Source: Propionivibrio sp. (GTDB lineage: Bacteria; Pseudomonadota; Gammaproteobacteria; Burkholderiales; Rhodocyclaceae). From it: a DNA stretch of 39,053 bases. Shown one piece after another: positions 15,214 through 32,737 of the stretch. Both the position numbers and the translations under genes were made by a program. The stretch is from the NCBI GenBank assembly GCA_029975435.1, contig JARKPC010000174.1:1-39053 (forward strand), written 5' to 3'. The notes under the pieces are model-generated. The model worked only from the letters and a program-made list of their open reading frames with translations. It was not told the origin of the DNA and ran no database searches. Positions within the stretch are counted from its first letter, which is position 1. Each line of letters opens with the position of its first letter.

Positions 15214-16230
15214 ATGCCCAAAACGGTCGAAGAAATATCCCGCGAAACCGGCTTTTCCGTTACCACTGTCCGCCTGGTGATCAACGGACAATCGGAAAAG
15301 TACCGGATCAGTGCCGCGACCCGCAAGGTCATCGAGGATTATGTGGCCTTGCACGGGTACTCGATCAACCATGCCGCGCGGAGCCTGAAGCTGAACCGGA
15401 GCGATACGATCGGTTTTGTCGTGCCCGATCTGTCCAATGCGTTTTTCGCGCGCCTGATGGCGGCACTCGAGGTTCTGTGTCGCAAACGGAATCTCCTGTT
15501 GCTGACCGTCGCTTCGCACGAGGATCCGGTATTGGAAAACCGCGCGGTTGCCAACTTGCTCTCACGGGGTGTAGACGGACTCGTCATTGCACCCTGTCAG
15601 GCGACCGTTCTGCCGCAACTGATCAAGGGACGAAGCCGCTCGTCGATTGTGATGATTGATCGTGACTACAACTCGGGACTGTTTCCGACCGTCGTCAGCG
15701 ACAATTTCCAGGGCGGGCTCACGATGTCGCGCCGCATGTTGCGTCAGACGGCGAGTGAGCCTTTCGCGTTCCTGTGCGGCCATGCCGAATCGCCAAGCAT
15801 TCAGGATCGCATCCGGGGGTTCGCGGCGGCTTATGGGGAGGCAGGCATCGCCGGCGCCGAGGCCATGGTCCTGCTGGAGGCGGAAGACAGCATCGACGCC
15901 GGAAGGCGAATGATGCAATCGCTGATTGAAAATGCCCGGCACGCTCCGCGAGCGTTTATGTGCTCGTCGCTGCTGGTTCTGGAGGGAGCGCTCCAGCAGA
16001 TCAAATCCCAGGTCGGCAGTATCGATTCCCGCATTCTGATCGGAACGTTCGACGATCACACCATGCTCGACTTGTTGCCCAATCCCGTGCTCTCGATCCG
16101 CCAGAACGAGAAGATTCTGGCCCAGAAGATCGTCGAACGGCTGGTCGAGCAGCCGGCTGCGAAAAATCTCGACATTTCCTCTGCCGTCGTGGCCACGGAG
16201 CTTGTCTGCCGTAACCTGGACGCGTTGTAA
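15214..16230 (+). CDS. LacI-family transcriptional regulator (Cra/FruR-like), first copy
   Basis: A 338-aa repressor-type regulator. The N-terminal HTH (VEEISRETGFSVTTVRLVING, residues 4-24) is followed by SEKYRISAATRKVIE, the long hinge-proximal linker seen in Cra/FruR. A periplasmic-binding-like effector domain (from IGFVVPDLSN, about residue 67) follows. The recognition helix reads TTVRLVING, lacking the usual Ser-Arg of LacI proteins. It begins 87 bases after mpl and is followed by the ribokinase gene, with a candidate operator (16238-16253) just past its stop codon. It probably responds to a sugar or sugar phosphate made by the adjacent catabolic genes; the effector is unknown. Confidence 0.87.
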   Translation: MPKTVEEISRETGFSVTTVRLVINGQSEKYRISAATRKVIEDYVALHGYSINHAARSLKLNRSDTIGFVVPDLSNAFFARLMAALEVLCRKRNLLLLTVASHEDPVLENRAVANLLSRGVDGLVIAPCQATVLPQLIKGRSRSSIVMIDRDYNSGLFPTVVSDNFQGGLTMSRRMLRQTASEPFAFLCGHAESPSIQDRIRGFAAAYGEAGIAGAEAMVLLEAEDSIDAGRRMMQSLIENARHAPRAFMCSSLLVLEGALQQIKSQVGSIDSRILIGTFDDHTMLDLLPNPVLSIRQNEKILAQKIVERLVEQPAAKNLDISSAVVATELVCRNLDAL

Positions 16231-16237
16231 CGGACGA

Positions 16238-16253
16238 GCTAATTCGACGTAGC
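16238..16253. promoter_or_regulatory. Candidate LacI/Cra-type operator upstream of the ribokinase gene
   Basis: GCTAATTCGACGTAGC, with AGCTA/TAGCT arms and a central TCGA, matches 14 of 16 bases of the perfect-arm site at 31091-31106 in the FGGY kinase promoter. It lies 7 bases past the stop of the first LacI gene and 137 bases upstream of the ribokinase ATG. Its imperfect second half suggests weaker binding or an auxiliary operator. Confidence 0.5.
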
Positions 16254-16301: not shown

Positions 16302-16329
16302 TAGACAACTGCCCGCCAGCTGATATAAA
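16302..16329 (+). promoter_or_regulatory. Candidate promoter of the ribokinase gene
   Basis: TAGACA (16302-16307) and TATAAA (16324-16329) are separated by 16 bases, ending 60 bases upstream of the ribokinase ATG. Each hexamer differs from the sigma-70 consensus at one position. Confidence 0.45.
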
Positions 16330-16389
16330 TTAGCGAGGTGCTGATTACGATTTAGTAACTGCGCAGCAAAAAATAGACAGGGCGGGGGT

Positions 16390-17280
16390 ATGAACAAGGT
16401 TCTCGTGGTTGGCAGCATCAACATGGATCTGGTTGTCGAAGCCGGGAAGTTTCCCGCGCCCGGCGAGACCCTGCTCGGACAGCGCTTCAGTACGTTTCCC
16501 GGCGGCAAGGGGGCTAACCAGGCGGTCGCCGCACGGCGGCTCGGCGCTCGCGTGGCGATGATCGGTTGCGTGGGCGGTGATGCGTTCGGGCGGGAGTTGC
16601 TCGGCCTGCTCGAAAAAGAGGGCATTGACACCCGCTTTGTTCGCACCGCGGAGGGTATTTCCACCGGAGTGGCCGCAATTACCGTCAGCCAGGCCGAGAA
16701 TTCGATCGTGGTCGTGCCAGGCGCCAACCATGCGCTTTCCCCCGCCGACATACAGGCGGCCGAGAGCGCTTTCGCCGAAGCGGACCTTGTGCTTTGCCAA
16801 CTTGAAATTCCCCTCGAAACCGTGGAAGCCGCCGCGATGCTCGCGGAACGCCATGACAAACCGTTCATCCTGAACCCGGCGCCGGCCATGCCCCTGCCGG
16901 AAGGGTTGCGTGCGCGCACCGCGCTGGTAACGCCCAATGAACACGAATTGTCGATTCTGTCTTCGCTTCCGGACAGCCAGTGGCAGCGGCAGCTGGCGTT
17001 GCACCCCGAGCGCATCCTGATGACCCGTGGGTCCGATGGCGCCTGGTTCGCCGGCAGCGACGGGGAATTGCATCATCAATCCGCATTCAAGGTCACACCT
17101 GTCGATACCACAGGCGCCGGCGATACGTTCAACGGCGCGCTGGCGGCATTCTGGGGCAGGGATCTCGCAGAGTTGGCGCGGCTGGCCTGTGCTGCGAGCG
17201 CGCTTTCCGTGACGCGGGCCGGGGCGCAGGGTGGCATGCCTACCCGGGAAGAACTGGACGCGTTTCTTGGGTCCAGGTAA
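16390..17280 (+). CDS. Ribokinase-family (PfkB) carbohydrate kinase
   Basis: A 296-aa kinase very like ribokinase. The N-terminus is VVGSINMDLVVEAGKFPAPGETLLG, followed by the substrate motif FPGGKGANQAVAARRLGA (about residues 37-54). The PfkB signature DTTGAGDTFNGALAAF (about residues 239-254) contains the catalytic Asp. It would phosphorylate a pentose or related sugar at the terminal hydroxyl. Its place between a Cra-like regulator and the TRAP transporter suggests the phosphorylated sugar comes from the transported substrate or a by-product. RbsK is the closest functional model, but no Rbs ABC transporter is present, so the substrate may not be ribose. Confidence 0.87.
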   Translation: MNKVLVVGSINMDLVVEAGKFPAPGETLLGQRFSTFPGGKGANQAVAARRLGARVAMIGCVGGDAFGRELLGLLEKEGIDTRFVRTAEGISTGVAAITVSQAENSIVVVPGANHALSPADIQAAESAFAEADLVLCQLEIPLETVEAAAMLAERHDKPFILNPAPAMPLPEGLRARTALVTPNEHELSILSSLPDSQWQRQLALHPERILMTRGSDGAWFAGSDGELHHQSAFKVTPVDTTGAGDTFNGALAAFWGRDLAELARLACAASALSVTRAGAQGGMPTREELDAFLGSR

Positions 17281-17494: not shown

Positions 17495-18520
17495 ATGAGT
17501 AACATTTCGTTGAAGCAGACATGGACCAACAACGGCATCAAGGCGCTGGCGGTGATTGCCGCACTGGGCTTCGGATTCGCCGCACCCCAGGCGATGGCGC
17601 AAACCAAGACCACGATCCGCATCTCGACGCCGGCCGTGCCTGAAGACTGGCATGCCAAGATGTGGACGGTGTTCAAGGAAACGCTGGAAAAATCCGCGCC
17701 TGGCGAGTTCGACGTGCAGATCCACCTCAACGCGGCGCTGTTCAAGCAGGGCACCGAGCCCACGGCGATGGCGCGCGGCAACCTGGAAATGTCGGCCATC
17801 TCGGCGCAGGATATTTCCAAGATCGTTCCGGAATTCTCGATCTTCACCGCCGGTTACATCATCCGCGACCCGGCCCACCAGGCGAAGGTCTTCGATGGCC
17901 CGGTTGGCGCCGAAGTCTTCAAGCCGGTCATCCAGAAGATGGAAGTCACCCCGCTGGCTACCGCGTACCTTGGCACTCGTCAGCTCACCTTGCGCGAAGA
18001 CAGGAATGTGATGACCCCGGCCGACCTCAAGGGCGTCAAGCTGCGCATGCCAGCCAGCAAGGAATGGCTGTTCCTCGGCGAAGCGCTTGGGGCGACCCCG
18101 ACGCCGCTGGCCTTTGGCGAAGTCTATCTGGCGCTCAAGACCGGCACCATCGATGGTCAGGACAACCCGCTGCCGAGCGTCCGTGCCGCCAAGTTCTATG
18201 AAGTCAGCAAGACCATCGTCCTGACCAGCCACCTGGTCGACGCGATCTTCCTGTCCTATGGCACCAAGGCCTTCAACGCGCTGAAGCCTGAGCAGCAACA
18301 AAAGGTCAAGCTGGCCGCCGAGGCCGCTGCGCGTTACAACAACGCCAACCGGATCAAGGACGAAGCGGAATTGGTCGACTTCTTCAAGTCTCAGGGCCTG
18401 AAGGTCATTACCCCCGATGTCGCGGCCTTCCGCAAGACCGTCCAGGAGAAGTACCTGAAGTCCGACATGGCCAAGGTCTGGCCGAAGGGACTGCTGGAAA
18501 AGATCAACGCCGTCAAGTAA
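17495..18520 (+). CDS. dctP: TRAP transporter substrate-binding protein (DctP family)
   Basis: A 341-aa periplasmic binding protein. The signal peptide (about residues 1-35, ending AAPQAMAQ) precedes TTIRISTPAVPEDWHAKMWTVF. The family's conserved Arg, which holds a carboxylate, appears to be in LKGVKLRMPASKEW (about residues 175-188). The segment ALKTGTIDGQDNPL (about residues 211-224) is the classic DctP signature. It captures the substrate for the DctQM permease. A strong AGGAAGGAG site precedes the ATG. The substrate should carry a carboxylate if the Arg is used canonically, which argues for a sugar acid as one nutrient of the cluster. Confidence 0.93.
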   Translation: MSNISLKQTWTNNGIKALAVIAALGFGFAAPQAMAQTKTTIRISTPAVPEDWHAKMWTVFKETLEKSAPGEFDVQIHLNAALFKQGTEPTAMARGNLEMSAISAQDISKIVPEFSIFTAGYIIRDPAHQAKVFDGPVGAEVFKPVIQKMEVTPLATAYLGTRQLTLREDRNVMTPADLKGVKLRMPASKEWLFLGEALGATPTPLAFGEVYLALKTGTIDGQDNPLPSVRAAKFYEVSKTIVLTSHLVDAIFLSYGTKAFNALKPEQQQKVKLAAEAAARYNNANRIKDEAELVDFFKSQGLKVITPDVAAFRKTVQEKYLKSDMAKVWPKGLLEKINAVK

Positions 18521-18533
18521 TCGTTCAATGGCG

Positions 18534-18590
18534 GGCGCCCGTCTTCGCGACCGGGCGCCTGAACGGCCCGGCGCCATGCGCGCCGGGGCC
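18534..18590 (+). promoter_or_regulatory. Two consecutive RNA hairpins in the dctP-dctQ gap
   Basis: The first hairpin is GGCGCCCG (18534-18541) with CGGGCGCC (18552-18559). The second pairs GGCCCGGCGC (18565-18574) with 18580-18590. Neither is followed by a T-run, so they look like mRNA-stabilising or polarity elements that keep binding-protein expression above that of the permease, not full terminators. Confidence 0.5.
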
Positions 18591-18613
18591 TTCGGCATAC
18601 CGGTGGGGGCATC

Positions 18614-19126
18614 ATGCTCAAGCAGCTAAGAAACGTAGCCAATTTCATTGGCACGCTGAGTTACGGCGTGCTATTTCTGACCTTCATCTTTCAGGTGGCC
18701 TTGCGCTTCATCTTCAACAAGCCGCTCACCTGGAGCGATGAACTGATCGTCATTCTTTATGTGTTCAGCATGTTCTGGGCGGGGGCCTTCCTGCTCAAGG
18801 AGAAAGATCACGTCATGCTGGATCTCGTTTATGAACACTTGTCGCCGCAGGGCAAGCGGGCATTCTCGATCGCCTATTCGGTGGTGATCGGTGGGCTTTT
18901 CCTGTGGGCGGTGCCGGCGTCGTACAGCTATGTCAGTTTCATGATGCGCGAAAACACGCCCGTGCTGGACGTGCCCTTTGGCATAGTGTTCGGCGTGTTC
19001 ATCCTGTTTCTTTTGTCCATCGGCTTTTATTACATCAAGAAACTGATCGTCCTGTTCGGCCCGAACTGGAAAGCGGAAGTCGGTGTGGTAGAGCATGATC
19101 TTCACAACTCGGAGTCGGTCGAATGA
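18614..19126 (+). CDS. dctQ: TRAP transporter small permease subunit (DctQ family)
   Basis: A 170-aa integral membrane protein with about four helices: around residues 15-35 (GTLSYGVLFLTFIFQVALRF), 45-65, 85-108 and 120-145. The conserved TWSDELIVILYVFSMFWAGAF region (about residues 38-58) is typical of DctQ. It forms the small subunit that pairs with DctM. Its stop overlaps the dctM start by 4 bases, so the two are translationally coupled. Confidence 0.9.
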   Translation: MLKQLRNVANFIGTLSYGVLFLTFIFQVALRFIFNKPLTWSDELIVILYVFSMFWAGAFLLKEKDHVMLDLVYEHLSPQGKRAFSIAYSVVIGGLFLWAVPASYSYVSFMMRENTPVLDVPFGIVFGVFILFLLSIGFYYIKKLIVLFGPNWKAEVGVVEHDLHNSESVE

Positions 19127-20418
19127 GTAATGCATTAATCATCATGCTCGTCGTGATGGCTGGCACCATGTTGCTGCGCGCGCCGATTTCCTTCGGCATG
19201 CTGGCAGGCGGCGTGGCCTACCTGGTAGCCAAGGGGCAGGACGTCGGCCTGATGGCCGAGCAGGTGCTCAATGGCCTGTACAACAGCTACGTCCTGCTGG
19301 CCGTGCCGCTGTTCATCCTCGCGGCCAGCATCATGAATGCCGGTGCGATAAGCGAACGCCTTTTCTCGATGGCCATTGCGCTGGTCGGACACTTCCGCGG
19401 CGGCCTGGCTTACGTCAACGTCATCGTCAGTGTGATCTTTTCCGGCATGAGTGGCAGCGCCATCGCCGATGCCGCCGGCCCTGGGCTGGTTTCGATCCGC
19501 ATGATGACCGAGAAGAACCGCTTTACGCCGGAGTTCGCCGGAGCGATTACCGCCTGTTCGTCCACGATCGGACCGATCATTCCACCGTCGATCCCGATGG
19601 TCATCTACGCGTTGGTTTCGGGCAGTTCGGTCGGTGCTCTGTTCCTCGGCGGGGTGATACCGGGGTTCATCATGGCTATCGCGCTGATGCTCGGCATCTT
19701 TATTCTCGGGCGGATTCACAATTTCCCGCGCGAAGAAAAGAAGCAGCTCAAGGATTTACCAAAAGTTGTTCTGGAAGGCTTCCTGCCGCTGACGCTGCCG
19801 ATCGTCCTCCTGGGTGGTATCTACACCGGTGTCTTCACTCCGACCGAGGCGGCCGCGGTGGCCGCCATGCATGCAATCCTGCTGACGCTGTACTATCGGA
19901 GCCTGTCATGGCAGCGTTTGTGGAACGTCTTGCAGGAATCCCTGAAGCAGAGCGCGTCGGTGACGCTGATCGTGGCCAGCGCGTTCATCATGAACTACGC
20001 GATCGCTGCCGAGCAGATTCCGGACCTCGTGGCGCACTGGTTTACGCAGCACGAATTTACCAAGATCGAGTTTCTCCTGCTGGTCAACCTGATCTTCCTG
20101 GTGCTTGGATGCTTCCTAGATACCTCGACGATGCTCCTGGTGCTGGTGCCGCTGCTGATTCCGTCGGCCAAGGCGATGGGCGTCGACCTCGTGCACTTCG
20201 GGGTCGTCGTCGTCGTCAACATGATGATTGGCTTGGTGACGCCGCCGTTCGGCATGCTGCTTTTCGTCATCAACGCGCTGACCGGGACGTCGCTCAAGGG
20301 CATGATCAGGGAGAGCCTGCCGTTCATGGCACTACTGCTGCTGTCATTGCTGCTCATGACCCTGGTGCCGGAAACGGTGCTCTGGCTGCCGCAGTCGATG
20401 GGCTACGTCACCATGTAG
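19123..20418 (+). CDS. dctM: TRAP transporter large permease subunit (DctM family)
   Basis: A 431-aa membrane protein with roughly 12 helices, the sodium-coupled transport subunit. Conserved motifs include FSGMSGSAIADAAGPG (about residues 106-121), IPPSIPMVIYALVSGSSVGALFLGG (about 155-180) and GCFLDTSTMLLVLVPLL (about 327-343). The C-terminus LVTPPFGMLLFVI is typical. It is coupled to dctQ by overlap, and a hairpin-plus-T terminator follows the stop. Confidence 0.94.
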   Translation: MSNALIIMLVVMAGTMLLRAPISFGMLAGGVAYLVAKGQDVGLMAEQVLNGLYNSYVLLAVPLFILAASIMNAGAISERLFSMAIALVGHFRGGLAYVNVIVSVIFSGMSGSAIADAAGPGLVSIRMMTEKNRFTPEFAGAITACSSTIGPIIPPSIPMVIYALVSGSSVGALFLGGVIPGFIMAIALMLGIFILGRIHNFPREEKKQLKDLPKVVLEGFLPLTLPIVLLGGIYTGVFTPTEAAAVAAMHAILLTLYYRSLSWQRLWNVLQESLKQSASVTLIVASAFIMNYAIAAEQIPDLVAHWFTQHEFTKIEFLLLVNLIFLVLGCFLDTSTMLLVLVPLLIPSAKAMGVDLVHFGVVVVVNMMIGLVTPPFGMLLFVINALTGTSLKGMIRESLPFMALLLLSLLLMTLVPETVLWLPQSMGYVTM

Positions 20419-20485: not shown

Positions 20486-21514
20486 ATGCCAACGAGTACC
20501 TACAAGCGATTGACCATTGACGACATTGCCCGCATGGCGGGCGTGTCGCGCACGACGGCAAGCATGGTGCTCAATGGCCGGGCAGAGCAGTTCCGGATTT
20601 CCGCCGCGACGCAGGAACGGGTGCTGGCCACGGCACGCGACAACAACTTCCAGCCTTCGCATTCCGCGCGCGCACTGCGCTCCGGCTGCAGCAATACGCT
20701 CGGACTGGTGATCCCGGAATTGACCAACTTCGCCCACGCCAGTCTGGCCCAGGCGATGGAGCCGATCTGCCATCAGGCCGGTTACCAGCTGCTGGTGGTC
20801 TCGAGCAACGACGAGGCCGAGCAGGAAACGGCGGGCATCGAACACCTGATCGCGCGGCAGGTCGATGGGCTGATGGTCGTGCCCTGTTCACCTGATCCGG
20901 AGACTTACCTCAAGTGGAGCAAGCGCCTGCCGTTCTTCCTGGTTGACCGGCGCATCGACAACACCTCCTTGCCCTACGTCGTGACCGATGCGGAAGGTGC
21001 GGTAACCACCATGGTGCTCGACGCCCTGTCCACGAGATCCGACGAAGCCTACTATTTTGGCGGACAGCCGCACCTGTCGCCGAGCATCGATCGACTGAGA
21101 GGCTTCCGGGCAGCCTTGGCCCAGGCCGGTCTGAAAGAAGCTCCGGGCTGGGTTCGCGCCCGTGACTACCATCGCCAAAGCGGCTATTCCCTGATGCAGG
21201 AATGCCATCGCGATCTCGGCCGTTATCCCCGGGTGCTTTTCACCGGATCAATCACCCTGCTGGAAGGCGCGCTGGCCTATATCAGCGAACACGGTCACTT
21301 CGGCATCGCGCCGCAGCGCATCATGACTTTCGACGATCACTACTTGCTCGATTGCCTGCCGGTGAGGATCGACGCCATCCAGCAGGACAGTCGAGCCCTG
21401 GCCAGCGCCAGCCTCGAGCGCTTGATCGGAATGATCAACAAGAAGGCGCCGACATCGGCAACCGTTCCTGCCCACTTGCACTGGCGCAGCCGAAAAGACG
21501 GGACAAGCGAGTAG
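20486..21514 (+). CDS. LacI-family transcriptional regulator (Cra/FruR-like), second copy
   Basis: A 342-aa regulator strongly resembling Cra (FruR). The HTH and linker RLTIDDIARMAGVSRTTAS then MVLNGRAEQFRISAAT (residues 8-42) nearly repeat, as I recall it, the Cra sequence SRTTASYVINGKAKQYRVS. The effector domain has the Cra-like phrases LGLVIPELTN, IEHLIARQVDGLMVVP and VLFTGSITLLEGAL. Cra is inactivated by a sugar phosphate, so this protein may sense a phosphorylated intermediate. Its recognition helix is the best candidate in the window to bind the TCGA-centred palindromes at 31089 and 16238. It lies just after the TRAP operon and is convergent with tctA. Confidence 0.9.
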   Translation: MPTSTYKRLTIDDIARMAGVSRTTASMVLNGRAEQFRISAATQERVLATARDNNFQPSHSARALRSGCSNTLGLVIPELTNFAHASLAQAMEPICHQAGYQLLVVSSNDEAEQETAGIEHLIARQVDGLMVVPCSPDPETYLKWSKRLPFFLVDRRIDNTSLPYVVTDAEGAVTTMVLDALSTRSDEAYYFGGQPHLSPSIDRLRGFRAALAQAGLKEAPGWVRARDYHRQSGYSLMQECHRDLGRYPRVLFTGSITLLEGALAYISEHGHFGIAPQRIMTFDDHYLLDCLPVRIDAIQQDSRALASASLERLIGMINKKAPTSATVPAHLHWRSRKDGTSE

Positions 21515-24680: not shown

Positions 24681-25724
24681 CTAGTTGACCGCGATCCTCC
24701 GATAAACGATGTTCCTGCGATTCCAGGTGTAGGTCAGGTGCAATATCCTGCCCTCGGCGATGATTGCCGGATAAGAAAATTCGCCTTCGTCGGTTTCCAT
24801 ATCGAGGAGATCCTGCCACGACGCGCCGTTGTCGCCTGACCATGCCAATGAAATCGGATGACGCCGGCCCCAGTTGCCGCCGATCGGGTTGTACGCCAAT
24901 ACCAGACGCCCATCATCGAGGCGGGCGAGGTCGATGCCGCTGTTGTTGTTCGGCAGTGGCGTGGCATAGGCCCGGCGCCAGGTGCGCCCGAAATCAGCCG
25001 AGTCGCTGCGATAGATGTGGCCGCGTGTGCTGCGCATCAGCATGTGAATCTGTCCATGCGCCGATTCCCACAATGTCGGTTGGATCACGCCGTCCCACTT
25101 AAAAACCCGTTCGACGTCAGTTTCCCACAGCGCGTTCGCAGCCAGCCCCGGCCACACGTCGCTCTGATTCGCGTTGCGTCGCTGCCGATGATCGATCGGC
25201 ACGTCGTGCTTGTGCCAGGTCGCCCCGTGGTCGGGGGAAATGTCGGCGAATGCGTCCCAAAATTCCTCGGTCTCGATAGAGGCCGGCGCGATCCATTCGC
25301 CGTTCGACATGACTAGCAGCTTGCTACGTACCGGTCCACGCGGCAACGTGTCCCCGGGCACCAGCGGTTGTGGAGTCGACCAGGTCCGGCCACGATCCTG
25401 CGAGATCACCCGTCGGGTAATCCAGTCGTGAACGGTGGGGCCAACCTTATAGAACAGCCAGAGCGTGTTGCCGTCCACATGCAGGACCGGGTTCCAGTGG
25501 GCGACCCCGTCTTCCGCGATCAGTCGCACCGGGCGCTGCCAGATGTCTCCTTGCGTGTGCGCCAGCCAGATGGCGACGTCGCCCTCACCCTCGCGCAGGC
25601 CGGCGAAGAACGCTGCGAGCAATTGACCGTCGGGCAAGCGTGCGAGCGAAGACGCGTGGCAATTGTTGAACAGCGTATGTTCCGGCGGGAAAAGGAACTG
25701 TTTGTCGGCGGCGATGACTTTCAT
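24681..25724 (-). CDS. Sialidase-fold (BNR/Asp-box) protein without a signal peptide
   Basis: A 347-aa six-bladed beta-propeller of the Sialidase_2 type. Four Asp-boxes (SxDxGxTW) are visible: SQDRGRTW (residues 108-115), SPDHGATW (163-170), SADFGRTW (242-249) and SGDNGASW (296-303). The N-terminal NNCHASSLARLPDGQLLAAFFAG is the family start. No signal peptide is present, so it is predicted to be cytoplasmic unless exported otherwise. No FRIP motif is seen, so true sialidase activity is doubtful; a glycoside hydrolase or lyase acting on an imported acidic sugar is possible. It is 89 bases upstream of tctC and probably cotranscribed with the transporter. No strong ribosome-binding site was found at the ATG. 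Confidence 0.82.
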   Translation of the reverse strand: MKVIAADKQFLFPPEHTLFNNCHASSLARLPDGQLLAAFFAGLREGEGDVAIWLAHTQGDIWQRPVRLIAEDGVAHWNPVLHVDGNTLWLFYKVGPTVHDWITRRVISQDRGRTWSTPQPLVPGDTLPRGPVRSKLLVMSNGEWIAPASIETEEFWDAFADISPDHGATWHKHDVPIDHRQRRNANQSDVWPGLAANALWETDVERVFKWDGVIQPTLWESAHGQIHMLMRSTRGHIYRSDSADFGRTWRRAYATPLPNNNSGIDLARLDDGRLVLAYNPIGGNWGRRHPISLAWSGDNGASWQDLLDMETDEGEFSYPAIIAEGRILHLTYTWNRRNIVYRRIAVN

Positions 25725-25901: not shown

Positions 25902-26687
25902 TCAGGTGTGGAGGTGCTTCCCGCGCCGGTAGCCAAAAAGACGGGAGATCTCCTCGGCGGCCCCGATGAGGTGCTGGGCCAACTCTGGAATCCATTCGGG
26001 CGTGATCCGGGTGGCGATCCCGAGTGCCGCGAGCGAAGCGAACACCCTGCCGTCGTGATCGCGGATCGGCGCCGCAACACTGCGCACCAAGTCGGCGTGT
26101 TCCGCATTGCTGACCGCATAGCCGCGTTCGCGGATTTCCGCCAGCGCGGCACGAAGCGTCGCGAGGTCGGTGATGGTGTTATCGGTGAATTTCTTCAGCC
26201 CCTTCTCGCGGACAGTGCGTTCGAGGTCGTCCTCCGGCATGAAGGCCAGGATGGCCTTTCCCGCCGCTGTTGCATGCATGGGCGCGGCGATGCCGACACC
26301 ACCATGGAAAATGTGGTGCTGCCAGATCGTCGTTCCCGATTCGTAGCTTTCGATCGGCAGCACGTCGCCATGGGAGGCCACAGTCAAGTGAATGGTGCAG
26401 TTCAATGTCTCGTGCAATTCCTGCATCAAGGGCAGGGCGATCTTGCGAATCTCGAGTTGCCCGCGCGCTCCGCTGCCCCACTCGATCAGTTTGACGCCGA
26501 GCTGATAGCGGCCACTCACCGGGTCGCGCCGCACCAGTTCCTCGACCTCCAGTGTGTGCAGAATCTTGGAAAGCGTACTCTTTGGCAGCGGGTGCTGCTT
26601 GAGAATTTCGACGAAACTGAGCGATCCCCGGCCATTGAGCAGGTCGAGAATGCGTGCGGCCTTGACGATCGAATTGACCAGATCCAT
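25902..26687 (-). CDS. IclR-family transcriptional regulator
   Basis: A 261-aa regulator. The N-terminal winged HTH (NSIVKAARILDLLNGRGSLSFVEILKQHPLPKSTLSKILHTLE, in pieces across residues 5-48) is followed by the IclR effector domain. In that domain the family's stretch AAPMHATAAGKAILAFMP (about residues 133-150) and the late ERGYAVSNAEHADLVRSVAAPIRD (about residues 187-210) are clear. It sits between the aldolase-like gene and the Asp-box/tctCBA operon, so it probably controls one or both in response to a small carboxylate or sugar acid. A terminator separates it from the upstream aldolase-like gene, so it has its own promoter. Confidence 0.92.
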   Translation of the reverse strand: MDLVNSIVKAARILDLLNGRGSLSFVEILKQHPLPKSTLSKILHTLEVEELVRRDPVSGRYQLGVKLIEWGSGARGQLEIRKIALPLMQELHETLNCTIHLTVASHGDVLPIESYESGTTIWQHHIFHGGVGIAAPMHATAAGKAILAFMPEDDLERTVREKGLKKFTDNTITDLATLRAALAEIRERGYAVSNAEHADLVRSVAAPIRDHDGRVFASLAALGIATRITPEWIPELAQHLIGAAEEISRLFGYRRGKHLHT

Positions 26688-26814: not shown

Positions 26815-27750
26815 TTACTGCAGGATTCCGAGTTGCTTCTTGATTATCTCGCCCAGTTGCACCATCTGCTGCATGTTGCTCTGGAAGTGCGCCGAATAGT
26901 AGTTGCCGGATTCACGCACACGGGCGGCGACGGAGGCGAAGTTGCCGATCGACTTCTGGTAGTCCTTGGCGCAGATCGGATATTCCAGGTACTCGGCCAG
27001 CGACGCGGTGGACAGGTAAGCGGAAACGATCTCGGCCTTTTCCGGTTCCTGTTGCCAGTTGTTGCACAGCCACACGTAGAGTTCCGGATGGAAGTTGGTC
27101 ATCACTCCACTGTAACCGTGCGCGCCGGCTTGCAGCGAGGGCAGCAGCGTCTGGCCGTTGGCGTTGGCAATGCGCAGGCGGCTGCCTTTGACCAGTTCAA
27201 CGCGGCGGGTGATCGTGTCGATTCGGCAGCAGGTGTCCTTGATGAACGTGTAGCGCCCGCTCTGAGCGCACCAGCGGACGACATCGTCCGAAAGCAATCG
27301 CTTATAGGGGTGGGGGCATTCGTAGATGCCGACGCCGACCGTGTCGGGCAGCGACGCCGTAATCCTCTGCAAATTGCCGAGAACGATTTTATCGGACTCG
27401 CCGGGCATGGCGAGACGGTTGCTGATCAGGATCACGCTGTCCACGCCGGTGGCCGCGATCTTTCCGAGCTGGTCGATCTGTTGGGACAGGCCGCAGGCGG
27501 TATGCCCCGATGCCACGACGGGCACGCGGCCATCGACGTAATCGAGCACGAAACGCGTCAGCTGAAGCGATTCAGCCTCGGACAAAAAAAACATCTCGCT
27601 CGACTGGCAGTTGGCGAACAGGCCGTTGACGCCGGCCTTGATGTACCAGTCGATTAACTTCTTGAGTGAATCCCAGTCGATTTCGCGTTGTTCGTCGAAA
27701 GGCGTCAGCATGACCGGCCAGACGCCGTGGTAGTGGTCGTTTGTGTTCAT
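26815..27750 (-). CDS. Dihydrodipicolinate synthase / N-acetylneuraminate lyase superfamily protein
   Basis: A 311-aa TIM-barrel class I aldolase-like protein. The Schiff-base Lys is predicted at K171 (RYTFIKDTC) and the catalytic Tyr at about Y143 (GIYECPHPYK). The usual GTTGE carboxylate-binding motif is replaced by NCQSSE (residues 47-52), so the 2-keto-acid pocket differs from DapA and NanA. The N-terminal HGVWPVMLTPFDEQREID is the family start. It likely acts on a 2-keto-3-deoxy sugar acid as aldolase or dehydratase; it is not a lysine-pathway DapA. It follows the isomerase gene across a terminator hairpin and precedes iclR. Confidence 0.8.
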   Translation of the reverse strand: MNTNDHYHGVWPVMLTPFDEQREIDWDSLKKLIDWYIKAGVNGLFANCQSSEMFFLSEAESLQLTRFVLDYVDGRVPVVASGHTACGLSQQIDQLGKIAATGVDSVILISNRLAMPGESDKIVLGNLQRITASLPDTVGVGIYECPHPYKRLLSDDVVRWCAQSGRYTFIKDTCCRIDTITRRVELVKGSRLRIANANGQTLLPSLQAGAHGYSGVMTNFHPELYVWLCNNWQQEPEKAEIVSAYLSTASLAEYLEYPICAKDYQKSIGNFASVAARVRESGNYYSAHFQSNMQQMVQLGEIIKKQLGILQ

Positions 27751-27799: not shown

Positions 27800-29449
27800 T
27801 CACAGCTTTGCGAAGGCGTCGCCGGCGACGCAAACCTTGATGTTCTGCGTGATGGCCTGCGCCACGAAGGCGCGCAGGACGTCCTGCAGCTTGTCCTCAT
27901 CGACGTAGGCCACCGTGATGTGGTTGCTCTGGTGGCCGGCCATCAGATCATCGCGCCCGACGCCGTCGAGTGTGCAGTTGAGCAGCGGCCATTCGTAGGT
28001 CGTGGCCTTGCGCCGGCGCTCGAACTCGGCGGCCGGCAGTTCGACGGCGGTGCCGGTACCGATGTGCAGGAAGGTCTGCGTGCCCTCGTAGTGGGCGCGC
28101 GCCCAGATCAGCCGACCGGCCTTGCCCTGGCCGTGGATCGACGAGCCGCCTTTCGGGAAGTACATCGCCGGCTGGCGATAGCCGGTGGCGCCGGCGATCC
28201 CGCCCTTGATGTGTTCGAACGGCACCGAGCCGGAAATTTCGAAATCCCAATAGAACGTGCCCTGATACTCGCTGCCCCAGCGGATGTCGTGCAGAGTCGT
28301 TTCCGATGGCAGGCCGAGCGAATCGAGCAGGCGGAACAGCATCGTCTGCGGAATTGCCGTGCCCATGTCGACCTCGTTGACGCAGGTGATCGGCTTGCCC
28401 GGGCGGATGATGTTGCCATTCTCGTCGGGGATCGGGAAGCGTGCCGTCGAACCGATCGCGCCCTCGGCGAAGTCGGACGCCGCGCACGAATGCGCGAGGC
28501 CCTGCTGGTACTGTACGCCGACCGAGGTCAGGCCGAAGCGCTGCGTGAAGCGCGCCATGGCGATCATCATCGCGCACTGCTCCAGCACCTGGTCACGCGT
28601 GAGCTCCTTGGCCGGGTCCGTGCCGAAATTGAACTTCATCCCGCGCGCCTCGTACCACGCAAGACATTCTTCGCGCAGCGATTGCGGCACCTTGGCCATC
28701 TCGACGAGCAGGGCGGATTGCGACAGGCTCTCCATCGGCATGCCGATGTCGACGAGCGCCTTCTGCGGGAAGACACCGTTGATCATGCCCATGCAGAAAC
28801 TGTCGAACAGGCCCATGATTTCCTTGTTGCGCAGCACGAATTCGCCGACCTGCTGGCCGATCGCCCAGGCCGGCGTCTTGCTGGCGGGATGCGACGCATC
28901 GACGGGATGCAGGTACGCGGTGTCATACTTGATCGTGCCGGTCTTCAGCCAGGATTCCAGTCCCTTGAAGAAGAACTCGTCGTCGAAATCGCTCGACCAC
29001 AGTCGCGAATAGGACTTGCCGAGGCTGGTCAGCGTGCCGGCCATGCACAGCATGCCGACGAGCCCCGGCCAGGTGCCGTCGAAGTTGGCCAGCAGCAGGA
29101 CGGGGCCCTGGTGCTTGGCCAGGCTCGGAGCGAGATGGTGCGAGTATTGCCAGGCCGTGAGCAGCACGATGACGGGTGACTGCGGATCGATCGTCGCGAA
29201 CAGGTCGCTGCCTTCGCGCTGGCTGCTGATGAAGCCATGGCCCTTGTCGCCCTTGAACAGGTGCGCGCGCTTGGCCTGGACGCCGAAGCGGCCGGACAGC
29301 GCTTCTTCGAGCTTGTCCTCGAACTTGTTCTGCACCGGCCAGCAGGCGACATTGGCGGATTCGCGCAGGTCGGCGTTGGTGACGAGCAGAACCTCTTTGT
29401 CGCCGGCTTTGATCAGTGGTTTTGCAGGGGGAAGCGTCAGTTTAAGCAT
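27800..29449 (-). CDS. L-fucose/D-arabinose isomerase family protein
   Basis: A 549-aa protein related to FucI (591 aa in E. coli), which interconverts L-fucose/L-fuculose and D-arabinose/D-ribulose with Mn2+. The three metal ligands of FucI have clear counterparts: E359 in CVNEVDMGTA, D388 in LHDIRWG and H510 in HQSNHITV. The Gly-rich segment AMYFPKGGSSIHGQGKAGR (about residues 428-446) is a divergent match to the substrate loop. The N-terminal part is shorter than in E. coli FucI. It lies 30 bases downstream of the FGGY kinase gene, with a GAGGA ribosome-binding site, so aldose isomerisation and ketose phosphorylation are encoded together. No fuculose-phosphate aldolase is nearby. Confidence 0.83.
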   Translation of the reverse strand: MLKLTLPPAKPLIKAGDKEVLLVTNADLRESANVACWPVQNKFEDKLEEALSGRFGVQAKRAHLFKGDKGHGFISSQREGSDLFATIDPQSPVIVLLTAWQYSHHLAPSLAKHQGPVLLLANFDGTWPGLVGMLCMAGTLTSLGKSYSRLWSSDFDDEFFFKGLESWLKTGTIKYDTAYLHPVDASHPASKTPAWAIGQQVGEFVLRNKEIMGLFDSFCMGMINGVFPQKALVDIGMPMESLSQSALLVEMAKVPQSLREECLAWYEARGMKFNFGTDPAKELTRDQVLEQCAMMIAMARFTQRFGLTSVGVQYQQGLAHSCAASDFAEGAIGSTARFPIPDENGNIIRPGKPITCVNEVDMGTAIPQTMLFRLLDSLGLPSETTLHDIRWGSEYQGTFYWDFEISGSVPFEHIKGGIAGATGYRQPAMYFPKGGSSIHGQGKAGRLIWARAHYEGTQTFLHIGTGTAVELPAAEFERRRKATTYEWPLLNCTLDGVGRDDLMAGHQSNHITVAYVDEDKLQDVLRAFVAQAITQNIKVCVAGDAFAKL

Positions 29450-29479: not shown

Positions 29480-31069
29480 TCAGTGCCACGCCTGCATGGC
29501 GGAACGGCAGCGTTCCATGTCTTCGTAAAGTTGTAGATAAACGGCGTACTTGGCGTCGTGGAAAGCCTTGGTTTCCGGGCGGGCCTTGACGCTGCCGCCG
29601 GGGCGGACCAGCGTGGCGGCGGCTTCCGGCATGGAGGTGAAGGCGCCGCTGGCCACCGCGCCGAGCAGGGCGGCGCCGAGCGTCACGGCGTCCTCCTCGC
29701 TCACCAGCTGGATCTCGCAGCCGGTGGCGTCGGCGTTCTCGCGCAGCCAGTCCGGGTTCTTGGTGCCGCCGCCGCACATGACGATGCGCTCGATCTTGTG
29801 CCCGGCGGCGTTCATGCTGTCGATGATGTGGCGCGTGCCGTAGGCCAGCGCCTGCAGCGTGGCGAGGTACAGCCGGGCCAGCGCGTCCTTGCCCTGTTCG
29901 AGCGTCAGCCCGACGACGGCGCCGCGGGCGTGGGGGTTGGCGCGCGGCGAACGGTTGCCGTGGTGGTCGGAAAGCACGTGCAGGTCGCGTGTTGGCCATT
30001 GCTCGCGCATCTCCAGGTCGGCGAGCCAGTCATTGAGTACCGCATAAATGTTGCGGTCCTCGGCTTTGGCCGTGGTTTCCAGCAGCGGCCAGGCGTCGCT
30101 CTGGCGCAGCGTCCACTCGAGCAGCGCGCCGGCCGCGCTTTGCCCGCCTTCGCCGAGCCACCAGCCCGGTAGCATGGCGCCGAAATACGGACCCCACACG
30201 CCGGGCACCATGACCGGATCGGGGTTGACCACCATGTGGCAGTTCGACGTGCCGCCGATGATGGCCAGGCTGCCCTTGGGTTCCGTGCTGACCAGCGCCA
30301 ATCCGCCGGCATGGGCGTCGATGATGCCTGTGGCGACGACCACGCCGGGGGGCAGACCCAGTTCAGCAGCGGCCCGGGGACTCAGTTTCCCGGCGGCGGA
30401 GCCGAGCGGGAGAACCTGCAGCGGCACCTTGCCGGTGATGTCGGAGAGGCCGACTGCGGCGAGCAGCGTTTCGCTGAAGCGGTTCTCGTGCGCCAGGTAG
30501 TTCCACTTGCAGGTGAGCGTGCACACGCTGGCGATGTCGGCATCGGACAAACGCCACACGAGGTAGTCGGCGAGATCGAAGAAGCGCCATGCGGCGGCGT
30601 AGCGCTCCGGGAAATTCTGCTTGAGCCACAGCACCTTGGGCAATTCCATCTCGATGCTGACTTCGCCGCCGACGTAGGCCAGCGCCGGGTCCTTGGTGGC
30701 GTTGATTGCCGCCGTCTGCGTTCCGGCGCGGTGATCCATCCACATGATGATGTCGCGTTCGGCCTCGCCGGTTTCGGCTACGGAGACGGGCTGGCCGTTC
30801 GGTCCGACGGCGACGACCGAACACGTGGCATCGACGCCGATCGAGGCAACACAGCCCGGATCGATTTTCGCGGCGGCGATGGCTTCGCGCACCGCCGCGC
30901 CGGTTTGCGTCCAGATATCGGACGATGACTGCTCAACAAAGAGCGGCTTTGGATGAAACTGTTTGATCGGCCGCACGGCAAAGGCCAGTCGCTGGCCGTT
31001 TGCATCGAACAAACCGGCGCGCACGCTGGCCGAACCGATATCGATGCCAAGAAAGACCTGTCCGCTCAT
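29480..31069 (-). CDS. FGGY-family carbohydrate kinase (D-ribulokinase/pentulose-kinase type)
   Basis: A 529-aa kinase. The FGGY N-domain begins VFLGIDIGSASVRAGLFD (residues 5-22) and has SIGVDATCSVV (about residues 76-86) and the IMWMDHRAG motif (108-116), a combination I associate with the pentulose-kinase branch that includes D-ribulokinase. The C-domain ATP site is MCGGGTKNPDWLRENA. I start at ATG 31069 (MSGQ), which has GAGGG upstream; a longer frame runs through the promoter. With the isomerase it would turn an aldopentose (for example D-arabinose) into a ketopentose phosphate. A sigma-70 promoter with an embedded palindrome lies 20-66 bases upstream. Confidence 0.88.
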   Translation of the reverse strand: MSGQVFLGIDIGSASVRAGLFDANGQRLAFAVRPIKQFHPKPLFVEQSSSDIWTQTGAAVREAIAAAKIDPGCVASIGVDATCSVVAVGPNGQPVSVAETGEAERDIIMWMDHRAGTQTAAINATKDPALAYVGGEVSIEMELPKVLWLKQNFPERYAAAWRFFDLADYLVWRLSDADIASVCTLTCKWNYLAHENRFSETLLAAVGLSDITGKVPLQVLPLGSAAGKLSPRAAAELGLPPGVVVATGIIDAHAGGLALVSTEPKGSLAIIGGTSNCHMVVNPDPVMVPGVWGPYFGAMLPGWWLGEGGQSAAGALLEWTLRQSDAWPLLETTAKAEDRNIYAVLNDWLADLEMREQWPTRDLHVLSDHHGNRSPRANPHARGAVVGLTLEQGKDALARLYLATLQALAYGTRHIIDSMNAAGHKIERIVMCGGGTKNPDWLRENADATGCEIQLVSEEDAVTLGAALLGAVASGAFTSMPEAAATLVRPGGSVKARPETKAFHDAKYAVYLQLYEDMERCRSAMQAWH

Positions 31070-31088: not shown

Positions 31089-31108
31089 TTGCTAATTCGA
31101 GTTAGCAA
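31089..31108. promoter_or_regulatory. Near-perfect 20-bp palindromic operator in the FGGY kinase promoter
   Basis: TTGCTAATTCGAGTTAGCAA has TTGCTAA/TTAGCAA arms and a central TCGA; only one base pair is mismatched. It overlaps the last two bases of the -10 box and covers the likely transcription start, the standard place for a repressor. The central CG is typical of LacI-family sites, and two Cra-like LacI regulators are encoded in the same cluster. Confidence 0.75.
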
Positions 31109-31135
31109 TATATCCAATACACCTGAGCATTTCAA
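31107..31135 (-). promoter_or_regulatory. Sigma-70 promoter of the FGGY kinase-isomerase operon
   Basis: On the minus strand TTGAAA (31135-31130) is separated by exactly 17 bases from TATATT (31112-31107). Each hexamer is close to consensus. The palindrome at 31089-31108 overlaps the -10. Confidence 0.75.
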
Positions 31136-31176: not shown

Positions 31177-31205
31177 AACAAAAAGGCCTCCGGGAACGGA
31201 GGCCT
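31177..31205 (-). terminator. Terminator after the YhcH-family gene
   Basis: On the minus strand AGGCCTCC (31205-31198) pairs perfectly with GGAGGCCT (31191-31184) around a 6-base loop, followed by TTTTGTTG. It separates the YhcH-family gene from the downstream kinase operon. Confidence 0.85.
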
Positions 31206-31254: not shown

Positions 31255-31731
31255 TTACAGACCAAGCAGGCTGGCATGAACCTTGACCACAGCCTTGCGG
31301 ATCGTCTCCTTGCCTTTGATGGCCAGGCACGGGCGGTGCAGTTCCTTCGGCAGGAAAACGAGGTAGGTGCCCGGTGTCGCGTCGATGAAGCTCTCAATGG
31401 CCGGCGCCGGGAAGAAGGCCACGTCCTTTTCTTCGAGGTGGTTTTCCGTGGGCGCCAGATCGGGCTGCGGCTGCGAGAAGCCGTAGCGCTCGCAGGTGCT
31501 CACGGGGATTTGGATATCGGCGTACTGGTGATGAGCTTCGGCGCGACTTTCTGCCATCGTGCGCAGTTCGACGTCCTGCACCAGATAGAAAAGTTTGTCG
31601 CCTTCGATTTCGTAGCGCCCCGGTTCCTTCGTCGCGACGTCGACATCTTTCAGCGCCTCCAGGGCGCGGACGATGGCAGCGGGCAGGACGTTCTTTTGTT
31701 TGGCGACATCGGACAACAGACCAACGATCAT
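31255..31731 (-). CDS. YhcH/YjgK/YiaL family protein (NanQ-like anomerase family)
   Basis: A 158-aa cupin-like protein. Family features are VRALEALKDVD (about residues 21-31), the central AHHQYADIQIPVST (about 66-79) with conserved His, Tyr and Asp, and FFPAPAIESF then HRPCLAI near the C-terminus. Characterised relatives include NanQ (YhcH), which speeds opening of sialic acid anomers; YiaL and EbgC-type proteins sit in other sugar operons. It probably helps convert the anomer released by the transporters into the form used by the catabolic enzymes. It has its own promoter, ribosome-binding site (AGGAG) and terminator. Confidence 0.88.
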   Translation of the reverse strand: MIVGLLSDVAKQKNVLPAAIVRALEALKDVDVATKEPGRYEIEGDKLFYLVQDVELRTMAESRAEAHHQYADIQIPVSTCERYGFSQPQPDLAPTENHLEEKDVAFFPAPAIESFIDATPGTYLVFLPKELHRPCLAIKGKETIRKAVVKVHASLLGL

Positions 31732-31796: not shown

Positions 31797-31826
31797 ATTA
31801 TCCCCCAAACCGGTCGCTGTTGTCAG
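31797..31826 (-). promoter_or_regulatory. Promoter of the YhcH-family gene
   Basis: On the minus strand CTGACA (31826-31821) and GATAAT (31802-31797) are separated by 18 bases, each one mismatch from consensus. The -35 overlaps the stop codon of the lysR gene. Confidence 0.55.
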
Positions 31827-32737
31827 AACGTGCGCGGCGGTTGTTCGGCGAACCAGTTGCCGAGAAATCCCGTCATCGCCTGAACCTTGGCCGACAGGTG
31901 GCGGCGGGTCGGATAGACGACATGAATCGGGAGACGGCGCTGCTTCCATTCCGGAAGAACCTGAACCAGCCGCCCGGAAGCGATCAGCGGCTGCAGGATG
32001 AAACAAGGCGCCAGCACGATCCCGCTGCCGTCCGCGGCCATTTCGGCCAGCAGCATGCCGTTGTTGGCGTTGACCGGCCCGCCGATACGCACGCTGACAG
32101 GCTGGCCGTTTCCATCCTTTCCGTCCTCGAATTGCCACTGGTTGCCTGTTGCCGAGTAGGTGTACGTAAAGCACGCGTGGCGGAGCAAATCCTCCGGGTG
32201 CCTGGGGTGTCCTGCGCGAGCAAGGTAGTCGGGGGAAGCGGCGATGAGCAGCGTGGTATCGCCGATGTGCCGGGCGACGAGATTCTCGCTGCCGACCTTC
32301 CCCACGCGGATGGCGAGGTCGAGTCCCTCCTCGACGAAATCGGCGACGCTGTCGGAAAGCACGATATCCAGGGTAATGTCCGGGTAGGCACGACAAAAAG
32401 CGGCGAACGCGGGCGCCAGGCGCAGGGTGGCCAGGGCGATCGGGGCGGTCAGGCGCAGACGCCCGCGCGGGTGGCGGGCTTCTCCGGCCACGCTGGCTTC
32501 GGCTTCTTCCAGATCGGCGAGCAACTGCGTACAGCGCTCGAAGTAGGCGAAGCCTTCGTTCGTCGGATTCATGCGCCGCGTCGTGCGGTTGATCAGGCGC
32601 ACGTTCAGGTGGGTCTCCAGTTGCGCCACCATGCGCGACACGGCGGTAGTGGAGAGTCCGGTCTGTTCGGCCGCCGCAACGAAGCTGCCGGCCTCGATCA
32701 CCGAGCAGAAAACACGCATCGCCTCGAATTTGTCCAT
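31823..32737 (-). CDS. LysR-family transcriptional regulator
   Basis: A 304-aa regulator. The N-terminal winged HTH begins MDKFEAMRVFCSVIEAGSF and continues VAAAEQTGLSTTAVSRMVAQLE (residues 20-41), followed by HLNVRLINRTTRRMNPTNEG. The PBP-like effector domain starts near residue 90. The pattern resembles the LTTR subgroup (DmlR-like, CrgA-like) whose members often control a divergent operon. Here the divergent genes are doxX, a glutathione transferase and a DODA-type dioxygenase. A 33-base dyad in the 136-base gap is a good candidate binding site. Confidence 0.92.
   Translation of the reverse strand: MDKFEAMRVFCSVIEAGSFVAAAEQTGLSTTAVSRMVAQLETHLNVRLINRTTRRMNPTNEGFAYFERCTQLLADLEEAEASVAGEARHPRGRLRLTAPIALATLRLAPAFAAFCRAYPDITLDIVLSDSVADFVEEGLDLAIRVGKVGSENLVARHIGDTTLLIAASPDYLARAGHPRHPEDLLRHACFTYTYSATGNQWQFEDGKDGNGQPVSVRIGGPVNANNGMLLAEMAADGSGIVLAPCFILQPLIASGRLVQVLPEWKQRRLPIHVVYPTRRHLSAKVQAMTGFLGNWFAEQPPRTF

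Follow-up and report, generated by a model that had tools for sequence, protein, structure and literature searches.

The palindrome in front of the FGGY kinase-isomerase-aldolase operon (site A) is very probably a repressor operator that switches the sugar kinase-isomerase operon in Propionivibrio-type bacteria. The reading that best explains the observations as a whole, to which we give a probability of about two-thirds, is that site A is operated by LacI-1, one of two paralogous LacI-type repressors encoded about 4 kb apart, and that the other, LacI-2, has an ACG-centered operator of its own. In the window, i.e., the whole stretch of 39,053 nucleotides analyzed here, the earlier note had joined site A and a second palindrome near the ribokinase gene RbsK (site B) in one dedicated regulon. 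Both sequences are present, 14.85 kb apart, and agree at 14 of 16 core bases. The related second site and the two LacI-type regulators stand; a single regulon served by like regulators is not supported as worded, as the recognition helices of the two proteins differ and LacI-2 accompanies a different operator, GCTGnnnACGnTTTAG, at the RbsK promoter (class C), even if the specificities may overlap. What was described as one regulon is probably two overlapping or related regulons that meet at the ribokinase.

Features of the window discussed in the text (strand "." where none is assigned)
Feature	Position	Strand	Remarks
LacI-1, LacI-family repressor	15214..16230	+	Recognition helix SVTTVRLV; predicted to regulate class A
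Class B operator (site B), GCTAATTCGACGTAGC	16238..16253	.	8 bp after the LacI-1 stop codon (16230)
RbsK promoter, TAGACA-16-TATAAA	16302..16329	+	TAGACA in 8/9 RbsK upstream regions, G062 being without it
Class C operator, TGCTGATTACGATTTAGTA	16339..16357	+	Predicted LacI-2 site, just downstream of the RbsK -10; missed by the earlier note
RbsK, ribokinase	16390..17280	+	TIGR02152 score 314.9 (cut-off 299.65)
TRAP transporter DctP-DctQ-DctM	17495..20418	+	DctP nearest to 4pf6
LacI-2, Cra-like LacI-family repressor	20486..21514	+	Helix SRTTASMV; class C and the second aldolase operator are its predicted targets
DHDPS/NAL-family aldolase	26815..27750	-	PF00701 above cut-off; NCBIfam matches below their cut-offs
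Sugar isomerase, L-arabinose/L-fucose/D-arabinose isomerase fold	27800..29449	-	Fucose_iso_C below cut-off
FGGY family pentulose kinase	29480..31069	-	TIGR01315 score 546.4 (cut-off 408.7)
Class A operator (site A), TTGCTAATTCGAGTTAGCAA	31089..31108	.	Predicted site of LacI-1, 20 bp ahead of the start codon of FGGY (31069)
FGGY promoter, TTGAAA-17-TATATT	31107..31135	-	-35 TTG and -10 TATATT conserved
Terminator-like hairpin after the upstream YhcH gene	31184..31205	-	1 found, shuffle mean 0.3
YhcH/YiaL-type protein	31255..31731	-	TIGR00022 above cut-off

Site A at the FGGY promoter

As the earlier note had seen, the palindrome overlaps the promoter: the last two bases of the -10 element are the first two of site A. 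The promoter matches the consensus at 10 of 12 positions and was the one found in the scan, against a shuffle mean of 0.1. Since the terminator-like hairpin lies between it and the YhcH gene, it probably heads a separate unit. The assumption that central-CG palindromes are typical for the LacI family agrees with the accessible part of Ravcheev et al. 2014 (PMC4052901), which describes even palindromes with a central CG. Site A, at 20 nt (range, 16 to 22 nt) and with a CG center, has this form, and its core starts 37 bp upstream of the start codon, within the 140 to 30 bp where most LacI operators lie. Its resemblance to a LacI-type operator positioned to block the FGGY promoter is supported. 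A LacI-1 dimer would sit across the end of the -10 element and the expected transcription start and so block RNA polymerase; release of LacI-1 by an intermediate of the pathway, which might be a pentulose or a pentulose phosphate, would turn on the FGGY kinase, the isomerase, and the aldolase.

The genome-wide search that the earlier note had proposed as a check, with up to three mismatches, was run on the genome of origin (4.39 Mb in 292 contigs, 82% complete) but did not discriminate. With 212 matches (109 + 103) against 162 for the reversed pattern (71 + 91), this tolerance cannot decide the matter, and the question was therefore moved to relatives. Ten near-matches in this genome (L003, L004, L008, L010, L012, and L177 to L181) were dropped by eye, as they overlap ORFs or are without the promoter unit. 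Within the window, five matches at the same tolerance compare with a shuffle mean of 2.19, and 6 of 100 shuffles reach five. The two window sites are the sole exact matches in the genome; since the pattern was derived from them, this is in part to be expected. Across 28 genomes of the genus, GCTAANNCGNNNTAGC gave 44 strand matches against 132 for its reversed control; in other pattern searches, the counts were 10 against 11, 14 against 9, and 3 against 18. Raw motif counts are no argument here; the position of the matches and the conservation around them are what is telling. A weight matrix for LacI-1 was built from 13 sites outside the genome of origin, among them Telmatospirillum sites preceding an MFS transporter or an ORF without a family match. 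On it, the core of site A (31091) scores 35.3; in 26.4 Mb of Markov-1 random sequence, one position reaches 27.

The symmetric core GCTAANNCGNNTTAGC, which matches on both strands, occurs at 14 sites in the 28 genomes. Ten lie close upstream of FGGY and one upstream of the isomerase gene (G026); another, in a genome without an FGGY match (G002), precedes an operon for a sugar ABC transporter in which an L-fuculokinase takes the place corresponding to the kinase. The remaining two lie elsewhere. In G006 (C35, L091 6848-6863), a chemoreceptor (MCP) ORF begins about 13 bp after a symmetric GCTAATTCGTGTTAGC, which could serve another LacI protein, this genome having 13 LacI HTH matches. In G016 (C292, L095 505-520), a symmetric GCTAATACGGATTAGC is found about 1 kb before a pPIWI-associated island, which consists of an REase/Y-domain gene followed by a 1,133-aa ORF without a Pfam match.

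Seen from the gene, FGGY is present in 11 of the 28 genomes, which were not preselected by the core, and in 10 of these 11 the symmetric core stands a short way before the gene. In the remaining one, G006, only GCTAACACGTTACAGC is present, 254 bp upstream. When 11 promoters from nine genomes were anchored on the site (G000 and G026 give two each; the near-duplicates L056 and L092 were omitted), column identity averaged 0.95 within the 16-base operator and 0.48 in the sequence downstream of it. TATATT and GCTAA are invariant, and TATATTGCTAA is identical in all 11. Because these promoters were chosen for holding the core, their agreement in GCTAA, CG, and TAGC is to some extent a product of the choice; TATATT lay outside the selection, and its conservation is free of this. 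A free alignment of 12 upstream regions included one without a site (L057) and one with the site at the edge of the extracted stretch (L097). GCTAANNCGNNNTAGC is found in 15 of the 28 genomes, namely, in 14/14 with LacI-1 and/or LacI-2 and in 1/14 without (Fisher test, 7.5e-7, which ignores relatedness and the presence of target genes). The sole core match of G003, which lacks symmetry and coincides with the end of a polyprenyl-synthetase ORF, is probably a chance match.

Two observations from these promoters may be added. In G016 (C248, L094, about 1334-1349), a second strong class A-like site, TTGCTAATTCGAGTAAGCAA, precedes the main FGGY operator by 234 bp. In G018 (C146, L092 2760-4293), the match to FGGY runs through two reading frames, which points to a frameshift or an assembly error.

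Two LacI-type repressors and their predicted operators

The earlier note had described both regulators as Cra-like. Both indeed resemble LacI-type proteins, and for both the best NCBIfam match is the fructose-repressor subfamily, followed by Cra, at scores below the cut-offs: LacI-1 and LacI-2 reach 218.0 and 339.3 on the fructose-responsive repressor model TIGR02417 (cut-off, 389.55) and 187.4 and 253.6 on the Cra/FruR equivalog NF008452 (cut-off, 385). The sugar-binding domains of both are above cut-off. For the HTH domain PF00356 (cut-off, 27), LacI-2 scores 44.0 bits, above the cut-off, and LacI-1 scores 22.9 bits (E = 7.6e-5), below it. When LacI-2 alone was searched against the PDB, Cra was its nearest solved relative.

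A search of 99 genomes found LacI-1 relatives (E ≤ 1e-30) in 15, the genome of origin among them, and a further LacI-1 search in a collection of genome contigs gave 15 loci. Orthologues in ten further genomes are 62 to 73% identical to LacI-1, and LacI-2-type proteins are 32 to 38% identical to it. Each recognition helix is conserved in its own form, S[VI]TTVR[LF] for LacI-1 and S[RK]TTASM for LacI-2. Homologues of LacI-1 with the helix S[VI]TT[VI]R[LF] occur in three Telmatospirillum genomes, a Formivibrio MAG, and Gilvimarinus (37% identity). In Telmatospirillum, TTGCTGCGTCGAGTTAGCAT lies between the divergent LacI-1 and isomerase genes and is letter-identical in all three genomes. In the Formivibrio MAG, TGCTAACTCGAAACAGC heads an FGGY-isomerase-aldolase-DctPQM gene run, LacI-1 being on another contig, and in Gilvimarinus, GCTAACTCGCGTTAGC lies upstream of the gene of the LacI-1 homologue. 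Further pattern matches are found in the Gilvimarinus genome (three) and in a Telmatospirillum (one).

The presence of LacI-1 goes with the form of the core. Among genomes with FGGY, the TCGA core is kept in 9/9 with LacI-1, Formivibrio included. In those where LacI-1 was not detected, the core of G009 is TACGA, the promoter of G006 is without a site, and TCGA persists in G018; in the last (92% complete), the RbsK contig ends where LacI-1 would lie. The association is small in numbers, at 9/9 against 0/2 (p = 0.018) or, with G018 counted, 9/9 against 1/3 (p = 0.045). Since a TCGA core at FGGY accompanies LacI-1, LacI-1 is likely the owner of site A.

Most likely, LacI-1 represses not only the FGGY-isomerase-aldolase operon but also TRAP transporter genes on another contig of the same genome, C270, which we predict to be an extra member of its regulon. 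There, TATATTGCTAACTCGAGACAGC (L185 7110-7125) stands in front of a DctP gene, and GCTAACTCGAGACAGC is fused to the same TATATT as in the FGGY promoter and followed by the TRAP genes; this is the -10/operator unit of FGGY again, with one half degenerate. The DctP and DctM proteins of C270 are above their NCBIfam cut-offs, and this DctP shares 58 to 60% identity with two others, one from the neighborhood of LacI-1, isomerase, and aldolase in MS502-56 (L144) and one from the isomerase/aldolase cluster in G026 (L097). In G018 (C111, L103 3129-3144), a second aldolase gene and a TRAP gene set of YiaM type flank GCTAACTCGATACAGC, and position 3003 holds a class B site.

LacI-2, a paralogue with a Cra-like helix, appears to use an ACG-centered operator at the RbsK promoter and may read a similar one at a second aldolase gene located on contig C7. 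The class C element follows directly after the -10 in 9/9 RbsK upstream regions examined; these are stretches around LacI matches, all from genomes with LacI-2, with G005 and G027 as near-duplicates and with G062 from outside the genus, in another family of the same order. A separate promoter scan of the RbsK upstream region gave TAGACA-18-TAAATT. In the genome of origin, the window site (16340-16355) is the only exact match to the class C pattern. The 28 genomes hold 13 matches against 14 for the control; eight of the 13 are RbsK promoters, and the other five are in G014 (one), G002 (two), and G013 (two). Class C is an imperfect palindrome that better fits odd spacing, which is reported for 4% of LacI regulators in the accessible part of PMC4052901. 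The operators at the second aldolase gene are GCTGGAACGTTTTAGC on C7, GCTGCAACGTTTTAGC in G024, and GCTGATACGATTTAGC in G006. G009, whose one LacI HTH match (PF00356, E ≤ 0.001) is LacI-2, has class C. Searches with LacI-2 gave six matches at E ≤ 1e-80, all in one genus and including the genome of origin, in a family draw of 297 genomes, and one match at E ≤ 1e-90, the genome of origin, in a class draw of 369. In G062 (L062 4178-4225), a class C site and an A/B-like site precede RbsK with core starts 32 bp apart; a LacI-2-type gene is present, and no LacI-1 orthologue was found in this genome.

Site B does lie upstream of the ribokinase gene and just after a LacI gene, as the earlier note had it, but it is not a promoter-proximal ribokinase operator. 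The RbsK promoter (TAGACA at 16302, TATAAA at 16324) starts 49 bp beyond it, with a separate operator at 16339-16357, and site B starts 152 bp upstream of the RbsK start, slightly outside the main 140-to-30-bp range. By score it is unexceptional genome-wide: it reaches 17.5 on the LacI-1 matrix, five positions in 26.4 Mb of Markov-1 random sequence reach 17.4, and about 0.8 chance sites per genome would score alike. It is persuasive through its position and conservation only. In G022, G013, G009 (degenerate), G010, and G016, its counterparts have RbsK or DctP on one side and, on the other, a divergently oriented second aldolase gene. This gene is not at site B in the window or in G024 but on C7 and C12, respectively, and the site is kept nonetheless, at 17/19 identity (GCTAATTCGACGTAGCTGG and GCTAAGTCGACATAGCTGG), in surroundings that have diverged. 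Read on the minus strand (GCTACGTCGAATTAGC), it is identical to the Telmatospirillum site at 14 of 16 positions. We regard it, with modest confidence, as a real and probably auxiliary element, conserved in the upstream part of the LacI-1/RbsK intergenic region. Its scores on the LacI-1 and LacI-2 matrices (17.5 and 16.7) give no clear assignment; the TCGA core is like that of LacI-1 sites, and the position is like that of the sites between RbsK or DctP and the second aldolase gene elsewhere. As the core fits LacI-1, RbsK may answer to both regulators. The core starts of the B and C sites are 102, 90, 90, 92, 79, 79, and 162 bp apart; their helical phasing is not significant (hand-estimated Rayleigh p of about 0.07, five values), and we therefore make no claim of looping.

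Ownership of the sites

We infer the pairing of proteins with sites from sequence and co-occurrence, and the weight matrices tell the two classes apart only in part. Site A scores 35.3 on the LacI-1 matrix and 25.6 on that of LacI-2, built from 10 sites, two of them A-like; the latter value equals that of many of its own training sites. The G018 TRAP site with GCTAACTCGA scores 18.1 (LacI-1) against 20.8 (LacI-2), and the class B sites of G010 and G016 score 21.0 and 17.7 on LacI-2 against 13.2 and 13.0 on LacI-1, although these genomes have LacI-1 and a search with LacI-1 as the query found no LacI-2 in them. That class A sites score well on the LacI-2 matrix speaks for a reading in which LacI-1 and LacI-2 bind the A, B, and C sites interchangeably, one of them being sufficient. 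Sites A and B moreover have the half-sites GCTAA..CG in common, and A- or B-like sites are kept where one of the regulators was found without the other: G009, which retains a site at the A position, and G062 have LacI-2 with no LacI-1 found, and G010 has LacI-1 with no LacI-2 found. We nevertheless consider a shared regulon rather unlikely. The recognition helices differ at several positions, each conserved, every class C site at RbsK is from a genome with LacI-2, and the TCGA form of class A accompanies LacI-1 and its homologues in three other genera. It is improbable, too, that control of all sites falls to LacI-2 alone, with LacI-1 at work elsewhere. Of the two, LacI-2 matches Cra/LacI better, and it is the only LacI HTH match in G009, which has sites at the A, B, and C positions; yet G010, G016 (70% complete), and G026 (88% complete) have class A and LacI-1 with no LacI-2 found, the same search with LacI-1 as the query finding none in G002 and G003 either, and the Telmatospirillum site adjoins LacI-1.

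Ownership by a regulator of another type is quite improbable. Genes for an IclR (25902-26687) and a LysR (31823-32737) protein are close by in the window, and a LysR homologue is also found in L057, L092, and L096; these or an unrelated factor might bind the sites. However, tblastn (E ≤ 1e-15 or 1e-10) detected no homologue of either in the site-bearing stretches L055, L056, L059, L063, L098, and L099, several of which are short, and since the site persists where neither is detected, such an owner is unlikely. The even palindrome with a central CG is moreover typical of LacI operators (PMC4052901, accessible part). It is hardly credible that the palindromes are no operators at all but products of chance or RNA hairpins. 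A loose and common motif, raw counts that do not exceed their controls, and a site B that taken alone is within genome-wide chance would agree with this; site A, in contrast, is conserved across genera despite diverged flanks and is concentrated at FGGY. It also starts inside the -10 element, so that the expected transcript start would fall within the site and its left half would not be transcribed, a position that makes an RNA hairpin unlikely. With high probability, then, operator A is real, and control of A by LacI-1 with a separate ACG-centered operator for LacI-2 is the reading we retain.

Predicted pathway and known systems

The control proposed here is a new example of an ordinary mechanism, LacI-type control, probably shared out between two related repressors rather than exerted by one common switch. 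In Escherichia coli, Cra/FruR recognizes GCTGAAACGTTTCA, with the half-site GCTGAAACG (PMC11157272, accessible part). The half-sites assigned to LacI-2 (GCTGnAACG, GCTAAAACG) resemble the Cra half-site, in line with its Cra-like helix, whereas the LacI-1 sites have a TCGA core (GCTAACTCGA), and the control predicted here is local and not global. Closer in organization are the local LacI sugar regulons of Ravcheev et al. 2014 (PMC4052901), which share the even, CG-centered palindrome close upstream of a sugar-catabolic operon and near the regulator gene; the LacI-1/LacI-2 pair was not found in the accessible part of that work, nor did the limited part of the literature searched hold a report on Propionivibrio LacI operators. 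The pair offers a testable assignment of operators to two paralogous repressors and a natural case for the divergence of LacI recognition helices, with predicted regulon members on other contigs (the TRAP transporter of C270 and the second aldolase of C7).

The assignment also groups an uncharacterized isomerase, kinase, aldolase, and transporter into one pathway, probably that of D-arabinose/D-ribulose (D-arabinose to D-ribulose to ribulose-5-phosphate). The isomerase had no sequence match in the PDB. With its model (mean pLDDT, 57.7), Foldseek gave a probability of 1.00 for ranks 1 to 41, all of them L-arabinose, L-fucose, or D-arabinose isomerases, at TM-scores of only 0.22 to 0.27. For the window DctP, the TRAP protein 4pf6 (Roseobacter denitrificans RD1_0742) is the best match by both sequence and fold, with 45% identity in the Foldseek alignment, and the next matches are mostly sialic-acid SiaP proteins. 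As the AlphaFold models are mediocre (mean pLDDT, 69.2 and 57.7), these fold matches are supportive only.

The ligand in the 4pf6 crystal structure is reportedly Kdo. The pathway may perhaps be fed by this lipopolysaccharide sugar, whose cleavage to pyruvate and D-arabinose would fit these genes. According to the accessible part of PMC4016182, NAL-type aldolases join D-arabinose and pyruvate to Kdo, with low relative activity. Kdo is not mentioned in the accessible parts of PMC5812351 and PMC12076931, and no report on Kdo with TRAP, D-arabinose, catabolism, or sialidase was found in the limited part of the literature searched. We advance only tentatively, as a possible wider reading, a Kdo salvage circuit of TRAP uptake, aldolase cleavage, isomerization, and phosphorylation under two repressors, the LacI-1 subfamily and its Cra-like paralogue. 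If it were true, a LacI-1 subfamily with the helix S[VI]TT[VI]R[LF] and a TCGA-centered operator would be common to beta-, alpha-, and gammaproteobacteria, and the Cra-like paralogue would read an ACG-centered operator in the same intergenic region.

Other neighbors of these genes recur as well. A YhcH homologue lies beside FGGY in L055, L056, L057, L063, L092, L096, and L099, and a BNR-repeat (sialidase-like) protein encoded at 24681-25724 of the window is 61 to 64% identical to the product of a gene beside the Telmatospirillum LacI-1, isomerase, and aldolase genes.
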